Of a stretch of DNA of 64,000 bases, positions 13,324-31,331 are shown piece by piece. Position 1 is the stretch's first letter. Every line of letters begins with the position of its first letter. The translations under genes and the position numbers were made by a program. The notes under the pieces were generated by a model. The model was not told the DNA's origin and did no database searches. It worked only from the letters and a program-made list of their open reading frames with translations. This stretch comes from Ignavibacteria bacterium. GTDB taxonomy: Bacteria; Bacteroidota; Ignavibacteria; Ignavibacteriales; Melioribacteraceae. The stretch lies in assembly GCA_012719345.1 (NCBI GenBank), contig JAAYAN010000116.1:1-64000 (forward strand). The letters run 5' to 3'.

Positions 13324-16300
13324 ATGCAGAAAACAAAGCTGATTGAAGAATTTTACAGAAAAATTAAAACCGCAAGCAAAGAATTAACAAAGAAAGAAGC
13401 TTTTAAGGATTTATTAAACAGGCTTTATCATTCCGATGCTGAAATAATTAAGATAGTAGATAAAATTACACTTGGCGCAGAAACAACAGTATTAAACATA
13501 CCCAGAGCCGACCGACTGCATAAAGGCAGCGCGGACACTTTATATAACCGGATTATAATTGAATTTGAAAATGACCTCAGGGTTACAAACGAACATGCTA
13601 AGGAACAATTAGCAGGTTATATGCTCGGTCAGTTTAAAACCGGAGAAGGGTATAATTTTACTTTAATTGCTTCCGATTTTATTAACTGGAAAATTTATTC
13701 GCCCGATTTAAACTGTCTGGATAAATTGGATACATTACTGGAAGATGAAGTGGTATTGAATGAAGTTGAAAGCGCATCTTTCGTATTATCAGAAAAAAGT
13801 ACCGAAGAATTTTATTATTGGATTGACCGCTTTCTTTTCAGGGAAGAAAAACAAAGAGCTACACTTAAACGCATCGAGGAAGCTTTTGGACATCAAAGCA
13901 ATGTTTTTATTGAATCGTTAAGGGAATTAAAAGGCTGGTATAAAGAAGCTAAAAAGTTTGGTGAAGTTCAGGTAGCTTATGAACAGTGGCATAAATTTTT
14001 AAGTTTTGCTTACGGCACATTTGAAGGAAGCGAAGAGAACTTTTTAATTCATACTTACCTTAGCGTGTTTTCAAAAATGCTTGCTTACAGCGTTGTTTCG
14101 AATGATGATTACATTGATAACACCGAACTGAAAGAAATTTTAAGCGGCGAATTATTCCACAGATATAACATCAGAAATTTTGTTGACAGCGATTTTTTCC
14201 ATTGGGTAAACGAGGAAAGGAATTTCAGGAATCTTAAAAAAATGTTCCGGCTGTTAGCTAATGAAATTGCCAATTTCGATTTTGAAAATGTTGATGAAGA
14301 TATACTTAAAGGTGTTTATCAAGAATTAATTGATATTGATACCCGGCATACTTTAGGCGAATATTATACCCCCGACTGGCTTTGTGAAAGAATTGTTAAT
14401 GAATTTGAATTTAAAGAAAGCGATAAAATATTAGACCCGTCCTGCGGTAGCGGTTCCTTCTTAAGGGCTGCGCTTCACAGGATTAAAAAATTAAACCCCG
14501 AATTAAAAAGCGAGCAATTAAATGAAATGATATACGGAATTGATATTCATCCGTTAAGCGTTCAAATTGCCAAAACTACTGTTTTGCTTGCGTTAGGGAA
14601 AGATATAACAAAATCTAAAAAACCTGTGCATATAAATGTAATTCTTGCAAACACACTTCTTGCGCCTGAAGGAGTTCATAGTTTATTCGGCAGCGAATTT
14701 GAAATGAAAATTGACAAAATGAGCTACAAACTTAATACACAGGTATTGGAAGACGTTCAATTGTTTGATGAAGCCCTGGAGATTTGCGAAAAGCTGGCTG
14801 ACCAAACAATGAATATGAAAAATGAAACGATAGAAGTTTTTACCAACATATTGCAGCGGCAATTAAAAAGCGGAATAAACAAACAGATTTCAGATAGTTT
14901 TTACCAGATTTACGACGGGTTTAAAATTGCTAAAGAAAAAGGCAGAGACAGCATCTGGAAATTTATTGTGCAGAACCTTTACAAACCTTATTTCTATAAG
15001 GAAAGATTTAATTACGTGTTAGGCAATCCGCCATGGTTTACATACAGCGCAATAAGAAACGAAGAATACCAAAACACACTTAATGAGCTTGCAGTTAAAT
15101 ACAATGTAAAGCCGGAAAAGGTGGCAAACTTTCCTCATCTGGAAATTGCGGCTATTTTTCTTGCATATTGCAGCAGTTATTTTCTTAAAAACGGAGGGAA
15201 AATTGCTTTTGTACTTCCGCGCAGTTTTTTCAGCGCCGATCATCACGATAATACCCGGAGTGGAAAAGCAGAAGGTTTCAGAATTTCGGGTATATGGGAT
15301 TTTCAGGGAATAAATCCGCTGTTCAGAGTGCCAAGCTGCGCTATATTCGCGGATAAAACAAACGGCAAAAAAGCAATTCCGGCGGCTGGAATTGACGGCA
15401 GCGGGTTTACCGGAAAACTGAAAGAGCATAACTGCAATTTAGAAAATGCAAAAGAATTATTAACGGAAACCCCGGTTAAATGGCATTATGTTAAGCAGGG
15501 CGGTTCTTCTGCTTTTTCGAACATAAAAACAAAAACAAGACTTGAAGAAAATCCGTACAAAAAACTTTTCAGGCAAGGCGCAACCATAGTGCCGAGGTCT
15601 TTTTATTTTGTTGATATAAATCAGGAAATGCCTGATGACTTTGAAGACAGAATAATAAATATTAAAACGGCAGAAGCAATAAAAGCCGATGCAAAAAAAC
15701 CGTGGAAAGATCAGGAAATGAAAGGTAAAATGGAAAGCAGATTTTTCTTCCGCACAGCGTTGGCAAAAAGCATTCTTCCTTTTACGCTTTACAAACCGGA
15801 TATTATTGTTTTGCCCGTGATGATTAAACCGGATGAAACAGGAAAAAGGAAAACCCATCTTTATTCTTCTCTCGAATTAAGAAGGGAAGGTTACCTTGAA
15901 GCTGCAAAATGGTTTAAAAGCGTTGAGGATATTTGGGATTTATTGAAGACAGATAATAACAAGGAAATGACAAGTTTTAATTACTTAAACTGGCAAAACA
16001 AACTCACTGAGCAGAATCTTGATGCAAGGTATTTAGTTCTTTACAACACTTCCGGCAAAGATGCAATCAGTTTGGTACTTGATAGGAATAACATTGATTT
16101 ACAATTTTATGCAGATGCAAAGATATATTTAATGGCAACTGAAAACGAAAAGGAAGCAAAATATTTATCGGCAATACTTAATTCATCAATTCCAAACGAA
16201 AGAATGAAGGATTTCCAAACAACAGGTTTGTTTGGTGCAAGAGACATTCACAAAAAAATCCTCGACATATACTATCCCAAATTTGACGAGAACAACGAAC

Positions 16301-16485
16301 TGCATTTAAAACTTGCAGAGCTAAGCGGCGCTGCACATAAAAAAGCAAAGGAATATCTCGAAGCAAATCCGCCGCAAAAAGAACTTTCGGCAAACCTTCT
16401 CGGCAGACTGCGCCTTGAAATTAAAAAACATCTCTCCGCCGAAATGCAAGAGATTGATAAGCTGGTTAAAAAGGTTGTGGGGTGA
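13324..16485 (+). CDS. Single-chain restriction-modification enzyme (type IIG-like, Eco57I-type N6-adenine methylase)
   Basis: This 1053-residue protein combines nuclease, methylase and probably target recognition. The N-terminal 100 residues look like a PD-(D/E)xK nuclease: D71 leads into IIIEFEND with E80 and E82, then HAKEQLAGYM. The third catalytic position is glutamate rather than the usual lysine. A helical linker leads to GEYYTPDWLCERIV, the SAM-binding motif I ILDPSCGSGSF at 370-379, and the amino-methylase motif IV GNPPW at 567-571. The region after about 700 should hold target recognition; it is a guess by position. No separate S, M or R subunit is nearby. A two-gene accessory pair starts 42 bp downstream, possibly in the same transcript. 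Confidence 0.85.
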   Translation: MQKTKLIEEFYRKIKTASKELTKKEAFKDLLNRLYHSDAEIIKIVDKITLGAETTVLNIPRADRLHKGSADTLYNRIIIEFENDLRVTNEHAKEQLAGYMLGQFKTGEGYNFTLIASDFINWKIYSPDLNCLDKLDTLLEDEVVLNEVESASFVLSEKSTEEFYYWIDRFLFREEKQRATLKRIEEAFGHQSNVFIESLRELKGWYKEAKKFGEVQVAYEQWHKFLSFAYGTFEGSEENFLIHTYLSVFSKMLAYSVVSNDDYIDNTELKEILSGELFHRYNIRNFVDSDFFHWVNEERNFRNLKKMFRLLANEIANFDFENVDEDILKGVYQELIDIDTRHTLGEYYTPDWLCERIVNEFEFKESDKILDPSCGSGSFLRAALHRIKKLNPELKSEQLNEMIYGIDIHPLSVQIAKTTVLLALGKDITKSKKPVHINVILANTLLAPEGVHSLFGSEFEMKIDKMSYKLNTQVLEDVQLFDEALEICEKLADQTMNMKNETIEVFTNILQRQLKSGINKQISDSFYQIYDGFKIAKEKGRDSIWKFIVQNLYKPYFYKERFNYVLGNPPWFTYSAIRNEEYQNTLNELAVKYNVKPEKVANFPHLEIAAIFLAYCSSYFLKNGGKIAFVLPRSFFSADHHDNTRSGKAEGFRISGIWDFQGINPLFRVPSCAIFADKTNGKKAIPAAGIDGSGFTGKLKEHNCNLENAKELLTETPVKWHYVKQGGSSAFSNIKTKTRLEENPYKKLFRQGATIVPRSFYFVDINQEMPDDFEDRIINIKTAEAIKADAKKPWKDQEMKGKMESRFFFRTALAKSILPFTLYKPDIIVLPVMIKPDETGKRKTHLYSSLELRREGYLEAAKWFKSVEDIWDLLKTDNNKEMTSFNYLNWQNKLTEQNLDARYLVLYNTSGKDAISLVLDRNNIDLQFYADAKIYLMATENEKEAKYLSAILNSSIPNERMKDFQTTGLFGARDIHKKILDIYYPKFDENNELHLKLAELSGAAHKKAKEYLEANPPQKELSANLLGRLRLEIKKHLSAEMQEIDKLVKKVVG

Positions 16486-16527: not shown

Positions 16528-17064
16528 ATGAAAACTACTTCAATCCTTGCAGAATTATTAGTTATAGGAACAGTAAGCTTAGGCTGGATAAAACCTATTA
16601 TTGATGGTTTAATAAAATACGAAGTATTTAAAAATGAATTTTCTGACTACTATATTTACTACCTAATAGTAGTTATTTATTTATTAGGTATTGTGCTAAA
16701 CTATATTTCAGATCGGTTTTTCTATTACTATGATGCAAGACAAGTAAATAAATACGGTAATAAACAAAAGATACAACTTTTAAGATGTAAGCTTCTATTA
16801 TTGTCAGCTGAGGTGAATTCATATATGTCACAAAAAAGAAGTATCATTAGAATTTTTCGTGCAAGTGCGTTTAATTTTCTGATGTATGCGGTAGTGGCTT
16901 TGTGCTCTCTTTATGAACCATATTTAAAAGCAAATTGCTTTGTTTTGTTTTTAATGTCATTATGTCTTTCAATTATATTTTTTTTAGGGTACCATCATAC
17001 ACTTAATGGATATTTTAAATATATAACTGTTATGGGAGATCTTATTAATGAGCGAACAAATTGA
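16528..17064 (+). CDS. Four-helix membrane protein of unknown function, candidate effector
   Basis: I do not recognise this 178-residue protein. It has four likely membrane helices at about 5-24, 42-60, 112-130 and 135-155. Between helices 2 and 3 is a basic stretch (about 62-110, with RFFYYYDARQ and KQKIQLLRCK) that should face the cytoplasm. There is no signal peptide or enzyme motif. CGGAG sits before the ATG. The last 17 bases overlap the start of the kinase-Nudix gene in another frame, so the two are very likely translated together. Small membrane proteins coupled to nucleotide-processing partners are typical effectors of abortive defence modules; that role is inference. Confidence 0.7.
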   Translation: MKTTSILAELLVIGTVSLGWIKPIIDGLIKYEVFKNEFSDYYIYYLIVVIYLLGIVLNYISDRFFYYYDARQVNKYGNKQKIQLLRCKLLLLSAEVNSYMSQKRSIIRIFRASAFNFLMYAVVALCSLYEPYLKANCFVLFLMSLCLSIIFFLGYHHTLNGYFKYITVMGDLINERTN

Positions 17065-18445
17065 TAATATTAAAGAAAAAAAAGAGAAAATTGAACATTA
17101 TAAAAGATTAGCCCAGACAATAAAGGCAAATATCACTTCGCGGAAAAGACCATTAATTGTTGAATTTTCTGGGTTACCTAAATCAGGGAAAACAACAGTA
17201 GTAAATAGTTTGGCTCTTTTTTTGCGCAGAAACGAAATTCCAACAATTATTATTACTGAAAGAGCAACAGTTTGTCCAATAAAGAATAAAGAACATCCTG
17301 ATTTTAATATTTGGACAGGGTGTACATCACTAATAAATATGCTTAATTATAAACAACGGGATGATTATTTTGTAATAATAATCGATAGGGGGATATTTGA
17401 TACCCTTATATGGTTAAATCTTTTAAATCAAAGCGGAAAATTAAATGATAATGATCTTAAAACTTTTGAAAATTTTTTCTTGCTCGAAAGATGGAGAACC
17501 AAAGTAGATTTAGTCATTTGTATGAAAACATCTATTGAGAAATCACTCGAAAGAGAATTTAAAGATCTTCTTACAGATATTGAAGGCTCAATAATGAATA
17601 AGCCATTTCTAACAAAGTTTCTCGAAGTTATGGAGTATGCAGTTAACACTTACAAAACTAAATTTAAAAAACTTATTGAAATAGATACAAGTGATATGTC
17701 AACAATTGTCGGAGTGGAAAAAGTAATTTCTGAAGTAATACAGAGTCTTGAAATCCTTTCTAACGAGGAGCTTATTACAATTCCAAAAGAACATTTTAAA
17801 GACAAGTTAGATAATATTGGTTTTGAAAAAGATAGGAATAAATTTCAAACGCTGGAAAGAATTATTAAAAAGCATCAAAAAATAGTGAGAAGAAAAGATG
17901 CTGAGGAAGATATAGGTCTTGTTCAGATTATTGTATGTGCTATCCTTACTTATAAAAATAAAATTGCAATAGTAACAAAAAATGAAATTGGAAATAGAAG
18001 ATTGCATAATAAAAAAATGATATGGGCTGGTGGTCACCTACAGTTTAATGATGCTGATGAATATCCTGAATTAACAATATTAAAATCAATGAAAAACTGT
18101 TTAAAACGTGAACTTCAAGAAGAATTTGAAATGGACTATGATACTGATATCACTTCTAATTGGAAAGGAATTGTTTATGATAACACGCACCCAAAATCAT
18201 TACTCCATTTAGGTGTTGTATTTCAAATTGATATTAAAGATGAATTTATGATGAGAACACTAGATAAGAAGAATTTTCGCGAACTATCTGGGCAAGGTAA
18301 CTATATTGAGTTTGTAGATTTAGATCAAAAATATTTCAGGGAGAATAATGTTGAACTTGAACCATGGAGTGTTGATATTCTAAGTTCTCTATTTAATATC
18401 ACAACCAAAATAACTAAAGACAGTTCTCAAATGGTTATTTTTTAA
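17048..18445 (+). CDS. P-loop (thymidylate/deoxynucleoside kinase-like) and Nudix hydrolase fusion
   Basis: This 465-residue protein joins two nucleotide-acting domains. Residues 35-235 form a P-loop kinase-like domain: Walker A GLPKSGKT at 42-49, then IIDRGIFDTLIW with D113-R114, as in thymidylate and deoxynucleoside kinases, and VDLVICMKTSIEKSLERE resembling the LID-proximal strand of that group. Residues 288 to about 440 are a Nudix domain: IWAGGHLQF and RELQEEFEM, with R354, E355, E358 and E359 of the Nudix box intact. An insertion of about a dozen residues separates the glycine from this helix, and the usual glycine after EE is absent. Substrates are unknown. The gene overlaps the membrane-protein gene by 17 bases. 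Confidence 0.75.
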   Translation: MSEQIDNIKEKKEKIEHYKRLAQTIKANITSRKRPLIVEFSGLPKSGKTTVVNSLALFLRRNEIPTIIITERATVCPIKNKEHPDFNIWTGCTSLINMLNYKQRDDYFVIIIDRGIFDTLIWLNLLNQSGKLNDNDLKTFENFFLLERWRTKVDLVICMKTSIEKSLEREFKDLLTDIEGSIMNKPFLTKFLEVMEYAVNTYKTKFKKLIEIDTSDMSTIVGVEKVISEVIQSLEILSNEELITIPKEHFKDKLDNIGFEKDRNKFQTLERIIKKHQKIVRRKDAEEDIGLVQIIVCAILTYKNKIAIVTKNEIGNRRLHNKKMIWAGGHLQFNDADEYPELTILKSMKNCLKRELQEEFEMDYDTDITSNWKGIVYDNTHPKSLLHLGVVFQIDIKDEFMMRTLDKKNFRELSGQGNYIEFVDLDQKYFRENNVELEPWSVDILSSLFNITTKITKDSSQMVIF

Positions 18446-19134: not shown

Positions 19135-20487
19135 TTATTCAGCTTTAGGTGAAGTATTTAATAATTTTTTCAAGTTAGTTTTTATTCTGAAAATAAAGAA
19201 TACTGCTGCAAATACAAGTCCAACCGAAAGGGCAATCCAAATTCCTGCAACACCCCAATTTATAACAAAACCAAGATAATAGCTTAACGGAATGCTAATT
19301 ATCCAGTAGCAGATAAAAGCTATAATCATCGGGATTTTAACATCAACCATTCCACGTAAAATTCCTAACGAAACGGCTTGCGCCCCGTCAAAAATCTGGA
19401 AAAATGCAGCAATAATCAGCAGTGAAGATGCAATTGAAATAACTTCAGTATCATTAACAAAAATATACGGTAAAATATTTTTGAGAATTATAAAAAGCAC
19501 GCCGAAACAAAACATCAAAGAAACTCCCATCAAAAGAGCAACATAGGCCGTTTTTTTTAGTTCGGTATAATTTTCCCTGCCCAATTCGTTCCCCACTCTT
19601 ATTGTTGCCGTAGAGGCAATTCCAATTGTAGTTAAAAAAGTGAATGATGCAAGACTTAAAGCAATTTGATGAGCTGCAAGAGCTTTGGCGCTTATCCATC
19701 CTACCATTACGGCAGCAAGTGAAAACGCACCGACTTCAAAAAACATTTGCAAAGAGGTAGGTGCACCCACCTGAAAAATTTTTCTCATAACTTTTGCACT
19801 TATTTCTTTGAACTGTATGTAAGGATTATAAACCTTAAACCTGTCAGATTTAGTTACGTACAGCATAATTGCAACCGCAACAAAAATCCTTGTAATTAAT
19901 GTTGCATAACCTGCGCCGTCAAGTTCAAGCCGCGGCATCCCGAATTTCCCGGTAATTAATATCCAATTACCGGCAGCATTAATAAAATTAGCTAAAAAAT
20001 TTACAACCGTTGGCGGAATTGTTTCTCCAAGTCCGTCAAGAAACTGCCTGTAACTTTGAAAAATCATTAACGGGAAAACAGAAAAACTTACTATTCTCAT
20101 ATAGGAGGAAGCGAGATTAACAACTTCCTCGGGCTGATCAAGATATTCTAAATAGAAAGAAACTGTATAACTTGCCGCAAACAAAAAAAATGAAAAGAAT
20201 AAATTGACAATTAAGGAATTCCGCAATAAAATGCCGCAATATTTTTTATTGCCCCCGCCTTTTGCTATTGCCACAAGGGGAGTTATTGCCACGCTCATTC
20301 CTATTCCTAAAACAAGAATAATAATGAATAAACTGTTTACCAATGATGAAGCAGCAAGGGGAACAGGACCTACCAGTTTGCCAACCATCGCGCTGTCAAC
20401 AATTCCCAGCATCATATGAAAAATGAAACCGAGTGAAATGGGAACAGATAGTTTAATTGTCTCTTTTAAGTGATATTTAATATTCAT
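19135..20487 (-). CDS. MATE family multidrug exporter
   Basis: At 450 residues with twelve predicted membrane helices in two similar halves, this is a complete MATE (NorM/DinF-type) antiporter. Marks include SVPISLGFIFHMMLGIVDSAMVGKLVGP at the N terminus (helix 1-2), QAVSLGILRGMVDVKIPM, and QIALSLASFTFLTTIGIASTATIRVGN in the middle. It would expel organic cations or drugs using Na or proton gradients. The neighbouring plus-strand pseudouridine synthase gene diverges from it. It ends about 75 bp beyond the DUF559 remnant, so it flanks the accessory island on the right. Confidence 0.92.
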   Translation of the reverse strand: MNIKYHLKETIKLSVPISLGFIFHMMLGIVDSAMVGKLVGPVPLAASSLVNSLFIIILVLGIGMSVAITPLVAIAKGGGNKKYCGILLRNSLIVNLFFSFFLFAASYTVSFYLEYLDQPEEVVNLASSYMRIVSFSVFPLMIFQSYRQFLDGLGETIPPTVVNFLANFINAAGNWILITGKFGMPRLELDGAGYATLITRIFVAVAIMLYVTKSDRFKVYNPYIQFKEISAKVMRKIFQVGAPTSLQMFFEVGAFSLAAVMVGWISAKALAAHQIALSLASFTFLTTIGIASTATIRVGNELGRENYTELKKTAYVALLMGVSLMFCFGVLFIILKNILPYIFVNDTEVISIASSLLIIAAFFQIFDGAQAVSLGILRGMVDVKIPMIIAFICYWIISIPLSYYLGFVINWGVAGIWIALSVGLVFAAVFFIFRIKTNLKKLLNTSPKAE

Positions 20488-21157: not shown

Positions 21158-22123
21158 TCAGGACTGCCGGTTTTTAATCTCCTCAATCAAATTGGGCAGC
21201 ACCTCCATTGCATCGCCGATAATTCCAAAATCGGCATACCGGAAAATCGGCGCATCTTTATCTTTGTTTATTGCTATTATTTTTTTAGAATTTCTCATTC
21301 CTGCCAAATGCTGTACTGCTTCCGAAATTCCAACGGCAATATATAAATCGGGTGAAACAGATATGCCGGTTTGCCCTACCTGCTCGCTTTGCGGTCTCCA
21401 GCCGGCATCAACCGCTGCCCTGGAAGCTGCAGCCGAGCCGCCTAAAAAAGAGGCAAGTTCTTCAATCAATCTGAAGTTTTCGGGAGAAGTCATACCTCTT
21501 CCGCCGGCTACAATTACTTTCGAATCGGATAGATTTCCGATATTATTTGCGGAAATATTTTTTATCAGATAATTGTTTATTTGAGGAGCTGATTTATTTA
21601 CACTAATTTCATAAGGAGAAACCAGATTTCCGGCTACTGAAAAAGCATTGAAACGGAGAGTAAAAAGTTTAATAGAACTGCTTGCTTTAATTTCGGCAAC
21701 AGCTTTGCCCGAATACACATTTTTTTTAGCTTTAATTTCGTTATCCGAAATTATAAATCCGGTACAGCCGGTAACAATTCCGCTGTTAGTTTTTGCGGAA
21801 ATAAATGAAGCAAGCTCTTTTCCGAAAAACGTATCTCCGAAAAGAATAATTTCCGTATCGGTGTTAAGGACAAAATTCAGCAGAATATTCTGGCAATTAA
21901 AAGAAAAAGGATTTTTAAAACTGTCATCCTCAATAACAGTAAGGGTAAAATCCGAATTTGATTTTATTGAGGTTTTATCAAAATTCTTGCTGCAAAATAT
22001 TACAGCTTCAATTTGCCGGTTGCTATCCTTATTTATATGACCGGCAGCTGCCAGTAATTGTAAGGAAATCTCTTTAATCTTATCATTGTCCTGTTCGAGA
22101 ACAGCAATTATTTTTTTACCCAA
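21158..22123 (-). CDS. etfA: Electron transfer flavoprotein alpha subunit, pair 1
   Basis: The C-terminal FAD-binding domain is clear over the last 120 residues: GGRGMTSPENF, AAASRAAVDAGW, QVGQTGISVSPDLYIAVGISEAVQHLAGM and GDAMEVLP. The N-terminal half is the diverged alpha/beta domain with TGCTGFIIS. The 321 residues fit EtfA. The start is TTG at 22123, six bases behind AGGAG. It lies nine bases after etfB of the same pair. Together they carry electrons from flavin dehydrogenases. No dehydrogenase gene is adjacent here, unlike for the second pair at 29416-31331. Confidence 0.92.
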   Translation of the reverse strand: MGKKIIAVLEQDNDKIKEISLQLLAAAGHINKDSNRQIEAVIFCSKNFDKTSIKSNSDFTLTVIEDDSFKNPFSFNCQNILLNFVLNTDTEIILFGDTFFGKELASFISAKTNSGIVTGCTGFIISDNEIKAKKNVYSGKAVAEIKASSSIKLFTLRFNAFSVAGNLVSPYEISVNKSAPQINNYLIKNISANNIGNLSDSKVIVAGGRGMTSPENFRLIEELASFLGGSAAASRAAVDAGWRPQSEQVGQTGISVSPDLYIAVGISEAVQHLAGMRNSKKIIAINKDKDAPIFRYADFGIIGDAMEVLPNLIEEIKNRQS

Positions 22124-22132
22124 ATGGAGCTC

Positions 22133-22876
22133 CTAAAAATCTTTTGATTCATTTTTCAAAAAGTCAGCTAATTCTTTTACAGAATCTTTGCTGTAATTTA
22201 AAATCTTGCAGACTTTCTTTTCCGAAGATATTTTATAACTTGAAATATCGCAGAAACTTTTGGCAGAATCAGCAGCTATTTCCTCAATCGGTATTTTTTT
22301 TGCATTCATTATTCCCTTTAACGAGGCATATCTTGGTTCGTTCAAACCCTTTTGCGTTGTAATAATTGCAGGACTTGATGTTTCCAAAGACATCACTCCG
22401 TTATCTGTCTGAATTTCCGCGCAAATCGTTTTTTGTGTGATATCTAATTTTACCGCGGGCGGTAAGTAATTAAAATCCAAAATATCTGCAACAATTTTTC
22501 CTGTAACAGCACTGTCAAAGTCAACTTTCTGTTTGCCGAAAAAAACCAAATCAAAATTTCTTTTTTTAATTTCGGATGCCAGCATTTTTGCTACGGATAA
22601 TGAATCAATCCGGTCATCCGTTTTTAATAGAACTGCGTAATCACATCCGATTGCAAGTGCCTTTCGAATAATTTCTTTATTTTGTTCATCGCCAACACTT
22701 ATAACGCATATTTCACCGCCTAGTTTTTCTTTGGTCCTAACAGCTTCTTCAACAGCGTACTCATCATAAGGATTTATAATATATTTTCCGGTAAATGATA
22801 ATGAAGTATTATCCTCGCTGATTATAAGTTCAGATTCTGTTTCGGGAACTTTATCTATGCATACACCGATTTTCAC
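22133..22876 (-). CDS. etfB: Electron transfer flavoprotein beta subunit, pair 1
   Basis: EtfB marks include VKIGVCIDKVPETE at the start, NPYDEYAVEEAVR, CVISVGDEQNKEIIRKALAIGCDYAVLL and FVFFGKQ-like DLVFFGKQKVDFDSAVTG. In the last of these the usual DDDxxQTG AMP-loop is altered to VDFDSAVTG. The start is GTG at 22876, six bases behind AAAGGA; an in-frame upstream reading to 22909 would hide this site. The resulting 247 residues match a typical EtfB. The altered loop differs from the second pair's DGDTAQVGP, so cofactor or partner may differ. It diverges from the histidine kinase gene. Confidence 0.9.
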   Translation of the reverse strand: MKIGVCIDKVPETESELIISEDNTSLSFTGKYIINPYDEYAVEEAVRTKEKLGGEICVISVGDEQNKEIIRKALAIGCDYAVLLKTDDRIDSLSVAKMLASEIKKRNFDLVFFGKQKVDFDSAVTGKIVADILDFNYLPPAVKLDITQKTICAEIQTDNGVMSLETSSPAIITTQKGLNEPRYASLKGIMNAKKIPIEEIAADSAKSFCDISSYKISSEKKVCKILNYSKDSVKELADFLKNESKDF

Positions 22877-22986
22877 AATAATCCTTTGAAATATTAAAAT
22901 AAAGAGCAAATTTAAGTATATACAACAAAAAATAAAATTAAAATAAGAAGAAGTTATTTCGATAATTACTAAAAAATTCTTATTCT

Positions 22987-24213
22987 ATGGATAAAAAGAA
23001 ACCTTCTGTTAACCAGCTTGAAAAGCAGATTAAAATTTTAACTGCACGCGTTAAGGAACTTGAAAAAGAAGAATTGATGCGTACAAAAACAATGAAAGCT
23101 TTAAGCGAAAGCAACGACCGTTTCAGTTCCTTGATAGAAGAAGCTCCGGATGCCATAATTCTTGTAGACCCTAACACTGGTATGGTCCTTTATGCAAATC
23201 CTTTTGCTTCTGAACTATTAAAAGGCGAACACGATGAAATTGTAGGAAAATTTCAAAATGATCTTTTCCCGCAGAATGATAACGAAGAATATTTGCGTGA
23301 ATTTAAAACAGAAGAAAAAAGCCTTTATGTAAAAAAATATCCGAGAAGATTTGAAAATAAAATTAAACGCTGCGACGGTGTTGAAATTCCTGTTGAAGCA
23401 GCTGCAAAAACACTTTTAGTTGATGGCGATCTTTTGCTTATGTGCATCTTAAGGGATATGTCAGTTCATAAAAAAATGGAAGACGATTTAAGGAATGCAA
23501 AGATTAAAGCTGAAATGTCGGATAAGCTTAAAAGTGATTTCCTTTCTCAAATTTCGCACGAAGTCCGTACACCTATAAATACAATTGTTAATTTTACAAA
23601 TATTTACCGAGAAGAAATATTATCTAAATTCAGTCGGGAAGAAGCTGAAGAAATAGATTACGGTTTTAAAGTAATTGACAAAGCGGCAAACAGACTAATC
23701 CGAACTATCGATTTGATGGTTAACTTATCGGAAGTATCAAGCGGCACATACGCAGGAAGACCCGAAATAATTGATTTGGTAAAGGATATTATCAACCCTC
23801 TTGCAAAAAAATATTCTGATTTATGCTTAACGAAAAAAATAAACTTTGAAATTGAAAATCAAACAAGAGCTGTTGTAACAGCCGATATCTTTTCGATAAA
23901 GCAAATATTTGAAAATATTTATAATAACTCAGCACGCTTTACTGAAAATGGAGTTATAAGAACTACTATTTTAAAAGAAAAAGAAAAAATATCAGTTGTT
24001 ATTTCCGATACAGGAATAGGTATATCAAAAGAGTATTTGCCTTATGTATTTGATACGTTTTCTCAGGAAGAACAAGGATATACAAGAAGCTTTGAAGGTA
24101 ATGGATTAGGTTTGGCCTTAGTTAAAAAATACTGCGAACTCAATAAAATTAATATTACGATAAAAAGTGTTAAAGGTCAGGGTACAGAAGTAATTTTAAC
24201 TTTTAATAGATAA
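22987..24213 (+). CDS. PAS-domain sensor histidine kinase
   Basis: This 408-residue protein starts with a coiled coil (about 5-40), then a PAS domain (about 43-165, with FSSLIEEAPDAIILVDPNTG). A HisKA dimerisation helix has phospho-histidine H191 in SQISHEVRTPIN. The HATPase_c domain has an N-box around NIYNNSARFTENG, a G1 box SDTGIGISKEY and a G2 box GNGLGLALVKKY. There are no membrane helices, so it is cytoplasmic. No response regulator lies beside it. It diverges from the first ETF pair and precedes the LIM-peptidase gene by 63 bp. Confidence 0.93.
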   Translation: MDKKKPSVNQLEKQIKILTARVKELEKEELMRTKTMKALSESNDRFSSLIEEAPDAIILVDPNTGMVLYANPFASELLKGEHDEIVGKFQNDLFPQNDNEEYLREFKTEEKSLYVKKYPRRFENKIKRCDGVEIPVEAAAKTLLVDGDLLLMCILRDMSVHKKMEDDLRNAKIKAEMSDKLKSDFLSQISHEVRTPINTIVNFTNIYREEILSKFSREEAEEIDYGFKVIDKAANRLIRTIDLMVNLSEVSSGTYAGRPEIIDLVKDIINPLAKKYSDLCLTKKINFEIENQTRAVVTADIFSIKQIFENIYNNSARFTENGVIRTTILKEKEKISVVISDTGIGISKEYLPYVFDTFSQEEQGYTRSFEGNGLGLALVKKYCELNKINITIKSVKGQGTEVILTFNR

Positions 24214-24276: not shown

Positions 24277-25353
24277 ATGCACAATCCCTTAAAATTACTA
24301 CTCTTAATTTGGTCGCTTCTTATTATTACATCTAATTATGCTCAGAATATAATTTGCAGCGGATGTAATAAAAAGATTGAAGGAACATATCTGAAAATTG
24401 ATAATAAGTATTTTCATTCCCAATGCTTTATCTGTGAAAAATGCGGTAAAATGATTGAAGGAAATTATCATAAAGAATCTAATAAGTATTACCATTCTTC
24501 TTGTTATGCCGAGGTATTTATAGGGAAATGCGAAGTATGCAAGAAAGCGATTGAATCGGAATACATTGTAAAAGACGGGAAAAAATACCATCCCGAATGT
24601 TTTAATGAAAGGGTAGCACTAAAATGCAGTATTTGCCGCGAAGTTATAAACGATGAATATTTTAATGACTTTTACGGGAATTCGTATCACGCTATTCACG
24701 AAAAAGAATATCCCAAATGCGATAATTGCAGACGGCTGATTTGCAGTGCAATTACTGGCGGAGGGAAAGTTATATCCGACGGAAGAAACTTGTGCAATAT
24801 TTGCTTAAAAAATGCTGTTAAATCCGAAAAAGAAATAAATAATCTTTATAAAAAAGTTTTATCCCAATTGAACAAAGACGGATTTAAAATTATTACTAAA
24901 GATATAAAAATATTTTCTGCCGATAGAAAGATACTGAAAAAAGCTGCCGGTGATAGCTATATGGAAAATATGAAAGGTTTTTGTGTTTCGGATAAAAAGA
25001 CGATTATCGGTTTGGCAAAAAACAAATCCTGGACAAAGCACTCAATATATATATTGAATAATATTCCTGCTGTATTTATAGAATCTACAATTGCTCACGA
25101 GTTAATGCATATATGGATAACGCAAAATACAAAAGGGGAGCAGGATGATGATTTTATTGAAGGTAGCTGTAACTATTTAAGCTATCATTATCTGCGGAAC
25201 AATAATTCGGAAGATGCAAAAGTTATTAAAGAATTTATTATGAAAGATAATAGTATAATTTACGGTGATGGTTTCAGGAAAGTTTATAAAAAAATGAAAG
25301 GTATGCCGCTTAACCATTTATTCAGTTTATTACGACAGAGAAAAAGTATTTAA
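24277..25353 (+). CDS. Secreted LIM-domain zinc metallopeptidase, DA1-like
   Basis: A signal peptide (1-22, cleaved near NYAQ) leads into zinc fingers. The first LIM domain has C27, C30, H47, C50, C53, C56, H73 and C76 with spacing C-x2-C-x16-H-x2-C-x2-C-x2-C. A second, partly degenerate LIM starts with C85, C88, H105 and C108, then C117, C120 and H138. Another cysteine group is at C148, C151, C173 and C176. From about residue 190 comes a peptidase domain with HELMH at 274-278 and a likely third ligand E295 in DDFIEGS. LIM plus HExxH plus EG is the layout of plant DA1 peptidases and their bacterial relatives. The target is unknown. Confidence 0.85.
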   Translation: MHNPLKLLLLIWSLLIITSNYAQNIICSGCNKKIEGTYLKIDNKYFHSQCFICEKCGKMIEGNYHKESNKYYHSSCYAEVFIGKCEVCKKAIESEYIVKDGKKYHPECFNERVALKCSICREVINDEYFNDFYGNSYHAIHEKEYPKCDNCRRLICSAITGGGKVISDGRNLCNICLKNAVKSEKEINNLYKKVLSQLNKDGFKIITKDIKIFSADRKILKKAAGDSYMENMKGFCVSDKKTIIGLAKNKSWTKHSIYILNNIPAVFIESTIAHELMHIWITQNTKGEQDDDFIEGSCNYLSYHYLRNNNSEDAKVIKEFIMKDNSIIYGDGFRKVYKKMKGMPLNHLFSLLRQRKSI

Positions 25354-29415: not shown

Positions 29416-30306
29416 ATGTTTCATTCAATTGTTATGGTTAAACAAGTGCCTGATACTGCAAATATTTCGGGTAAAGTTATGAAAGATGACGGTACTGTTA
29501 ACCGTGCAAAACTACCTGCAATATTTAATTACGAAGATCAGGTTGCTCTTGAATTTGCACTTCAGATAAAAGAGAAACATGGCGGGAAAGTAACAGTTGT
29601 TACAATGGGTCCTGCCAGAGCATCGGATATGTTGCGTGAATGTTTGTATATGGGAGCAGATGAAGCTTATTTAATAAGCGATAGAAAGTTTGCCGGTTCG
29701 GATACCCTTGCAACTTCGTATGTACTCAGCGAAGCAATAAAAAAAATTGGTGATTACGATTTTATATTTGCCGGCAGACAGGCAATTGATGGCGATACTG
29801 CACAAGTAGGACCGCAGACTGCCGAAAAATTGAAAATACCTCAAATTACTTATGCCGAAGAAATTGTTGATATCAAAAAAGATAAAATAAGAATTAAAAA
29901 GAAAATTGACGGCGGTTTTGAAGTTTTGGAAAGCAAACTTCCTGTTCTTATTACAGTATTGAAAGATGCAGTAAATCCACGACCTTTTTCTGCAAAAAGA
30001 GTAATGGCATACAAAGGTGCAAAATCTCTTATGGATCTTGAAAAAATGGTTGAAGATAATTCTCTGCTCTATATCGATAAACTTTTAGAAGAATACAAGG
30101 ATAAAAATCTTTTTATAAATACTTTAACGATGGATGATTTACAACTTGATGCTGAAAGATGCGGAACAAGCGGATCGCCAACAAAGGTTCATAAAGTTGA
30201 ATCGGTAGTTTTAGCCGGCGGCGGCGATAAAGTGAAAATTGCACCAACCCGTGAAGGTTTGGGTGAACTTATTGAAAAACTTATGTCTGACCATATTTTA
30301 GGGTAA
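29416..30306 (+). CDS. etfB: Electron transfer flavoprotein beta subunit, pair 2
   Basis: This 296-residue EtfB starts with MFHSIVMVKQVPDT behind AAGGAG. Conserved blocks are NYEDQVALEFALQIKEKHGG, TVVTMGPARASDMLRECLYMGADEAYLI and the nucleotide loop AGRQAIDGDTAQVGPQTAEKL at 119-139. The DGDTAQVGP form is characteristic of ETFs of the anaerobic, FixA-like and bifurcating group, in which the AMP site can hold a second flavin. It is longer than the first pair's EtfB by about 50 residues. It heads an operon with etfA (5-bp gap), acyl-CoA dehydrogenase, carboxyltransferase and biotin carrier. Confidence 0.95.
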   Translation: MFHSIVMVKQVPDTANISGKVMKDDGTVNRAKLPAIFNYEDQVALEFALQIKEKHGGKVTVVTMGPARASDMLRECLYMGADEAYLISDRKFAGSDTLATSYVLSEAIKKIGDYDFIFAGRQAIDGDTAQVGPQTAEKLKIPQITYAEEIVDIKKDKIRIKKKIDGGFEVLESKLPVLITVLKDAVNPRPFSAKRVMAYKGAKSLMDLEKMVEDNSLLYIDKLLEEYKDKNLFINTLTMDDLQLDAERCGTSGSPTKVHKVESVVLAGGGDKVKIAPTREGLGELIEKLMSDHILG

Positions 30307-30311
30307 CGGAA

Positions 30312-31331
30312 ATGAAAAATGAAAAAAATGAAGTCTGGGTATTTATTGAAAACAGAAACGGAAAACCTGCAGATGTAAGTATGGAACTTACCTGTAAAGC
30401 CGCAAAGCTGGCTGCCGATATGGACGGTATAGTTAGAACCATTGTTATCGGACATAATGTTAAAAATATTGCGGAAGAGACATTCAAATATGGTGCAAAC
30501 GAATGTTATATTATAGATAACCCGGCATTGGAACAATATTTAACAATGCCATACAGCAGAATAATGAATGATCTCATAAAAACCTATCAGCCGAGGATTG
30601 TACTTTTTGGAGCTACTGTTATTGGCCGGGATCTTGCTCCGCGTGTTGCTTCAAATACTTTAAGCGGATTAACAGCCGATTGCACAGATTTGCAGATAGA
30701 TGATGTTGTGTATTTGAAAAATGAATATCCTAAAATACTTTTGCAGATACGTCCGGCTTTCGGAGGAAACATTATTGCCACTATTATTACTCCCGAAAAT
30801 CCCGTTCAGATGGCAACAGTCCGCGAAGGAGTTATGGAATTATCTCCACTTAAATCGCCTAATAAAATAAATATAACAGAAGTTGAATATATTTCTGATC
30901 CTATTGATGAATTAATTAAAATAATTGAACAGCACAGGGAAGAAAATAAAGTTAATTTAAAAGCTGCTCCTATTATTGTTGCAGGAGGTTATGGATTAGG
31001 AACAAGAGAGAATTTTAAACTTCTTGAAGAACTTGCCCACGTACTTGGCGGGGAAGTTGCAGGAAGCCGCGCCGCTGTTGATGCAGGATTTGTAACTCCC
31101 GACAGGCAGATAGGGCAGACTGGTGTTACAGTTCGTCCGAAACTATATATCGCAGTAGGAATATCCGGCGCAATACAGCATCGTGCCGGAATGCAGGAAT
31201 CAAACAAGATAATTGCAATAAACAACAATTCCGAATCTCCCATATTTGAAATTGCTCATTATGGAATTGTTGGCGATGCAGTTCAAGTAATTCCATTATT
31301 AATTGAAACTTATAAACAAAAATTGAAGTAG
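30312..31331 (+). CDS. etfA: Electron transfer flavoprotein alpha subunit, pair 2
   Basis: The 339 residues hold an N-terminal alpha/beta domain (EVWVFIENRNGKPADVS, FGATVIGRDLAPRVAS, SGLTADCTDL) and the C-terminal FAD domain: AGGYGLGTRENF, EVAGSRAAVDAGF, RQIGQTGVTVRPKLYIAVGISGAIQHRAGM and GDAVQVIPLL. It carries FAD and, with the EtfB before it, passes electrons between flavoproteins and the quinone or ferredoxin pool. The acyl-CoA dehydrogenase begins eight bases downstream and is the most likely electron donor or acceptor. Confidence 0.95.
   Translation: MKNEKNEVWVFIENRNGKPADVSMELTCKAAKLAADMDGIVRTIVIGHNVKNIAEETFKYGANECYIIDNPALEQYLTMPYSRIMNDLIKTYQPRIVLFGATVIGRDLAPRVASNTLSGLTADCTDLQIDDVVYLKNEYPKILLQIRPAFGGNIIATIITPENPVQMATVREGVMELSPLKSPNKINITEVEYISDPIDELIKIIEQHREENKVNLKAAPIIVAGGYGLGTRENFKLLEELAHVLGGEVAGSRAAVDAGFVTPDRQIGQTGVTVRPKLYIAVGISGAIQHRAGMQESNKIIAINNNSESPIFEIAHYGIVGDAVQVIPLLIETYKQKLK

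Follow-up and report, generated by a model that had tools for sequence, protein, structure and literature searches.

The gene at positions 24277–25353 (+) of the window, the whole 64,000-nucleotide stretch of Ignavibacteria bacterium DNA that was analyzed, encodes a 358-residue protein with the features of an exported LIM-DA1-type peptidase, and such proteins constitute a bacterial family that is conserved but has a patchy distribution. We consider it fairly probable that the protein is a zinc endopeptidase of the DA1-like family (MA clan, gluzincin type) that is exported and cleaves selectively, and in which the LIM array would have docking and latency roles. Its domains, export signal, conservation and the purifying selection on its gene were established by computation.

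Domain layout of the LIM-DA1-type protein

The open reading frame of the original prediction was confirmed in the ORF list. The gene is present in a single copy in its genome and encodes the sole LIM protein there. The combination of a LIM zinc pattern and a HELMH-EG peptidase motif in one protein, proposed from the letters of the sequence, was matched by two Pfam profiles above their cut-offs. The LIM match encompassed residues 27–79 (1.2e-14, 54.8 bits versus a cut-off of 22.9) and the DA1-like match (PF12315) residues 255–311 plus a second stretch (3e-12, 46.8 bits versus a cut-off of 25). The LIM pattern was found in 0 of 200,000 shuffled versions of the protein. The SprT-like profile (PF10263) stayed sub-threshold (20.2 bits versus a cut-off of 25.6) and the NCBIfam search of the protein gave no name above the cut-off.

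All features described below lie on the + strand. The signal peptide comprises residues 1–22 (24277–24342; MHNPLKLLLLIWSLLIITSNYA, with the putative cleavage site before Q23) and its h-region has a Kyte-Doolittle mean of 2.8. The canonical LIM domain (PF00412), residues 27–76 (24355–24504), contains two predicted zinc sites, C27 C30 H47 C50 and C53 C56 H73 C76. It is followed by an extra half-LIM of residues 85–108 (24529–24600) with one predicted zinc (C85 C88 H105 C108), recognized by the second LIM match in the genome search, the alignment and the pair count. The next module, LIM-like and encompassing residues 117–176 (24625–24804), adjoins the peptidase and is the counterpart of the LIM-like domain of plant DA1 (PMC5322733). 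Its eight ligands, C117 C120 H138 H141 and C148 C151 C173 C176, are all invariant in 22 aligned sequences. Both of the latter modules had been overlooked in the original prediction, whose quoted residues (C27 to C76, H274, H278 and E295) were correct by the Cys/His list. According to the same list, the protein has five predicted structural zinc sites in addition to the putative catalytic site formed by H274, E275, H278 and E295.

The DA1-type zinc peptidase domain occupies residues 178–358 (24808–25350) and was recognized by the Pfam DA1-like profile also with the domain alone (1.5e-13). The HELMH motif (25096–25110) supplies the predicted zinc ligands H274 and H278 and the predicted general base E275, and E295, the predicted third zinc ligand, is located 16 residues past H278 (25159–25161). 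A YGDGF motif at residues 329–333 (25261–25275) belongs to the second DA1-like stretch, which was matched in relatives. Both the profile score and the zinc-site residues indicate membership in the DA1-like family (PF12315), and the protein is a member of the LIM family by its two-zinc double finger pattern as well as by its fold.

Predicted structure

AF2 models of the mature protein were built from a two-sequence alignment. The best model reached a pLDDT of 84 and a pTM of 0.69, and the other four of the five scored 62–75. The Foldseek comparison with the PDB retrieved tandem LIM structures (PINCH, Lhx and LMO; best E 6.5e-7), and the zinc-finger fold proposed for residues 27–76 was recovered as a clear LIM fold (E about 1e-6). 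The LIM fold is strongly supported by the model.

The zincin fold is moderately supported by modeling. HExxH was placed within one helix and E295 within the following helix, which is the expected gluzincin order. The comparison of the model with a viral fold library revealed SprT-like and IrrE-like proteins and, besides these, a phage protein with a target TM of 0.73 (E 0.02–0.2), and the few hits ranking above them were annotated as E3 ligase/RING or uncharacterized. The isolated peptidase domain was modeled with a pLDDT of only 69, and this weak query gave no significant match in the PDB. The helix placement fits the gluzincin fold anticipated around H274, H278 and E295, but the fold support was not decisive.

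Distribution and conservation

The search with the PF12315 profile matched 30 of 97 related genomes, representing 22 of 61 genera. The same number, 30, was matched among 94 genomes when the alignment of the family itself served as the query, which makes it unlikely that the Pfam model overlooked carriers among the genomes without a match. When genomes were drawn evenly across the phylum, 18 of 395 matched, all from the family or order of the window genome. One relative (L017) was located in a Desulfobacterales MAG. Such a patchy distribution (30/97) suggests that the function is dispensable. No match to the peptidase was found in the plasmids, phages and viral contigs searched, and the gene being phage or plasmid cargo was rejected on these grounds.

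The family alignment (A1) comprised 22 sequences, 29–43% identical to the window protein, all of which (22/22) matched both the LIM and the DA1-like profiles. Invariant in it were H274, E275, L276, H278, E295 and G296, Y329, G330 and G332 of the YGDGF motif, and most of the structural zinc ligands. The pairwise dN/dS values were 0.11, 0.15 and 0.16 for the three sufficiently diverged pairs, indicating that the gene has been kept as a working protein under purifying selection.

Predicted export and compartment

A hydrophobic N-terminal stretch was present in all 22 aligned members, with the best 12-residue Kyte-Doolittle mean ranging from 2.1 to 3.4, which supports the signal peptide of the original prediction. 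The stretch ends shortly before the first CxxC and the predicted new N-terminus is nearly always Gln (AQ/GQ/SQ). The export signal was still clear in two references (L034 and L047) that begin one codon off the likely Met, and the signal-peptide-like N-terminus of the aligned relatives is shared by the Desulfobacterales MAG protein (L017). The window protein is probably cut by signal peptidase I before Q23; an uncleaved N-terminal anchor would not change the side of the membrane on which the LIM array lies. The proteins of alignment A1 stop right after the peptidase and no type IX sorting tail was detected in the family, which makes a periplasmic protein more likely than a released one. Export across the inner membrane is therefore the part of the earlier term "secreted" that stood, whereas release was not upheld, and the periplasm is probably the likeliest location of the window protein. 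Its export and its identity as a peptidase are both well grounded predictions.

LIM cysteines outside the cytoplasm are at risk of oxidation, which counts against an exported enzyme. The window protein's own genome had no match to VKOR or DsbA. VKOR was over the cut-off in none of 94 related genomes and DsbA was present in 16 of them, that is, in 6 of 30 peptidase carriers and 10 of 64 non-carriers (p = 0.57). A link between carriage and the disulfide machinery was rejected, as the DsbA frequency did not differ by this test and VKOR stayed below its cut-off in all 94 genomes. A mostly Dsb-poor envelope would render zinc-thiolate fingers in this location, of which the family is an unusual example, more plausible, although on circumstantial grounds. 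The order holding the window genome may perform little canonical disulfide formation.

Modularity of the zinc array

The array comprised 4, 5 or 6 predicted zinc sites across the family (CxxC/HxxC pair count) and its size changed in steps of single zinc units. Compared with the window protein, one half-LIM of ~32 residues was missing from the short members, and an additional one was present in L041 and L017. Throughout the family, the LIM-like unit beside the peptidase was constant.

A second copy in one genome (G027; L051:5736–6470) consisted of the LIM-like unit and the DA1-like peptidase, with neither a signal peptide nor a canonical LIM domain, and apparently represents a cytoplasmic side branch. 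It overlaps VWA and PP2C genes. The whole row of overlapping genes (L051:4073–9402, where L051 is the stretch 159800–172000 of G027:C20) encodes the DA1-like peptidase, a VWA protein, PP2C_2 and a second VWA protein and recalls TerY-type phosphorylation islands; the PADLOC analysis of this row gave no match.

Relation to plant DA1 and other zincins

Plant DA1 is a ubiquitin-activated peptidase with the HEMMHX15EE motif, whose activity is abolished by the C274Y substitution in the LIM-like domain (Dong et al. 2017, PMC5322733). The order of LIM (27–76), LIM-like (117–176) and HExxH peptidase is common to the window protein and plant DA1/DAR. The HExxH-to-Glu spacing of x16 corresponds to the second Glu of HEMMHX15EE, and the 4-site array of the family corresponds to the arrangement of LIM plus LIM-like domains reported for plant DA1 (PMC5322733). 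The resemblance to plant DA1 with the same domain order, as claimed in the original prediction, was thereby substantiated by curated Pfam matches and by the spacing.

The differences concern the N-terminus, the array and the compartment. Plant DA1/DAR proteins possess N-terminal UIMs, whereas no UIM match (Pfam) was found in the window protein, in which only four residues separate the predicted cleavage site from C27. The window protein has one zinc half-unit more than plant DA1. Plant DA1/DAR act inside the cell, whereas the window protein and its relatives carry a signal peptide and are thus predicted to be located outside the cytoplasm, a compartment in which ubiquitin-dependent activation of the DA1 kind would not be expected. 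Judged by its sequence, the window protein would function as a LIM-linked zinc peptidase of the DA1 type but, with neither UIMs nor predicted cytosolic action, is not a plant-type DA1. That bacteria have a family in which this LIM/LIM-like/peptidase core is devoid of UIMs and placed outside the cytoplasm suggests that the core needs no ubiquitin. Apparently, the activity of plant-like LIM proteases also extends beyond the cytoplasm with its ubiquitin.

The bacterial LIM-DA1 architecture is not new and was known in principle. A single LIM domain of bacterial origin, from Chloroflexus, was noted in 2007 (PMC1781342), and the LIM-like region of plant DAR4/DA1 was described as highly similar to Roseiflexus proteins (PMC5322733, citing Burroughs et al. 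2011). The bacterial Roseiflexus proteins, as cited there, have LIM-like zinc pairs and resemble the conserved C-terminal region of the DA1 family; Roseiflexus belongs to Chloroflexota, a phylum other than that of the window genome (Bacteroidota). Of the oddity originally ascribed to a bacterial LIM-DA1 protein, the exported form remains, but the occurrence of DA1-like and LIM proteins in bacteria had already been reported. A literature search of limited coverage gave no report of export, lack of UIMs or half-LIM modularity in this family.

SprT-like, IrrE-like (M78) and M1 zincins showed a sub-threshold profile likeness to the family, alongside the fold-library neighbors (SprT-like, 1.7e-4, and M1, 0.037, both below the Pfam cut-off in the window protein; M78, 3.7e-6 in a relative). 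To our knowledge, none of these peptidases has an N-terminal LIM array.

The family bears on the source of plant DA1. A far-reaching scenario, which we regard as speculative and rather unlikely, is that proteases of the DA1 kind were first exported bacterial envelope enzymes and preceded ubiquitin. Their stack of half-LIMs (2, 4, 5 or 6 sites) would then serve as an adjustable substrate ruler or a zinc/redox gate, and plants would have later gained the four-zinc form, with UIMs replacing the export signal.

Proposed mode of action and alternatives

As a selective endopeptidase, the protein would be exported across the inner membrane by Sec and then probably cut by signal peptidase I before Q23. 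The mature form would be an array of zinc-bound treble-clef half-units with five zinc sites, ending in the fixed LIM-like module, followed by a peptidase whose catalytic zinc would be held by H274, H278 and E295. Docking of a target protein or a surface is the most likely task of the outer LIM units. For the LIM-like unit, the most likely task is to control or orient the active site, in line with what has been reported on plant DA1. The array may also keep the catalytic domain latent; docking and latency are both guesses by analogy. The outcome would be limited cuts in particular envelope proteins and not bulk protein digestion. The patchy distribution, the weak model of the isolated peptidase domain and the lower scores of four of the five full-length models count against this reading, as does the oxidation risk of the LIM cysteines. 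The small single-copy enzymes of this family offer a chance to probe the effects of LIM and LIM-like units on a protease.

Alternatively, the LIM array could be a zinc/redox sensor, whose reduced, zinc-loaded state blocks the peptidase and in which oxidation or zinc loss opens an envelope stress protease. The many extracytoplasmic cysteines encoded by a genome devoid of matches to DsbA and VKOR, and the lack of VKOR over the cut-off among the 94 relatives, would be consistent with it. However, DsbA occurred at a similar frequency in carriers and non-carriers, and a free "switch" cysteine was never invariant, as the columns of C156, C236 and C298 vary; such a sensor seems improbable. General nutritional breakdown of proteins in the periplasm is less probable still. 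It would suit an exported metallopeptidase, and an M64 peptidase is encoded in the neighborhood of one relative (L032), but the LIM array is long and conserved, the gene is kept as one copy with no amplification, and the nature of LIM domains as binding modules points to a specific target.

We give very little credence to the domain being a scaffold and not a working peptidase, with the LIM array as the active part of an envelope adaptor. The isolated domain indeed lacked a significant match among solved structures, but H274, E275, H278, E295 and G296 are invariant in all 22 aligned sequences, the most divergent of which are about 29% identical, dN/dS is low, and a general base would be needless in a scaffold. 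Equally hard to credit is a released or cell-to-cell effector against other organisms, suggested by export and the eukaryote-like nature of LIM domains but opposed by the missing type IX sorting tail, the lack of conserved immunity-like or secretion-system neighbors and the absence of matches in plasmids, phages and viral contigs.

Genomic neighborhood

The survey of neighbors suggested originally did find relatives, but no conserved partner gene: the family-wide comparison revealed neither a conserved operon partner nor a conserved immunity-like or secretion-system neighbor. A single copy with no fixed operon partner argues for a stand-alone enzyme. In the window, a PAS-HisKA-HATPase sensor kinase gene recognized by Pfam (22987–24213, +) is located 63 bp upstream of the peptidase gene. 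The kinase is a possible partner, although the pairing is not conserved; the L017 gene is also preceded by a kinase and a PilZ gene. A gene for a MATE-family transporter was the divergent neighbor in seven loci (L032, L036, L037, L038, L039, L040 and L054), and its homologue in the window lies at 19135–20487, ~4 kb from the peptidase gene. The transporter was rejected as a conserved partner, as the arrangement was confined to one sub-lineage and looks like inherited gene order.

Some further genes of the window were noted by eye. The gene at 17048–18445 encodes a 465-residue protein, in which a P-loop kinase-like part at the N-terminus seems to be fused to a NUDIX-like part at the C-terminus, and lies near a gene for a large methyltransferase-like protein (13324–16485). 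Electron-transfer-flavoprotein-like gene pairs flank the peptidase gene on opposite strands, at 21158–22909 and 29416–31331.
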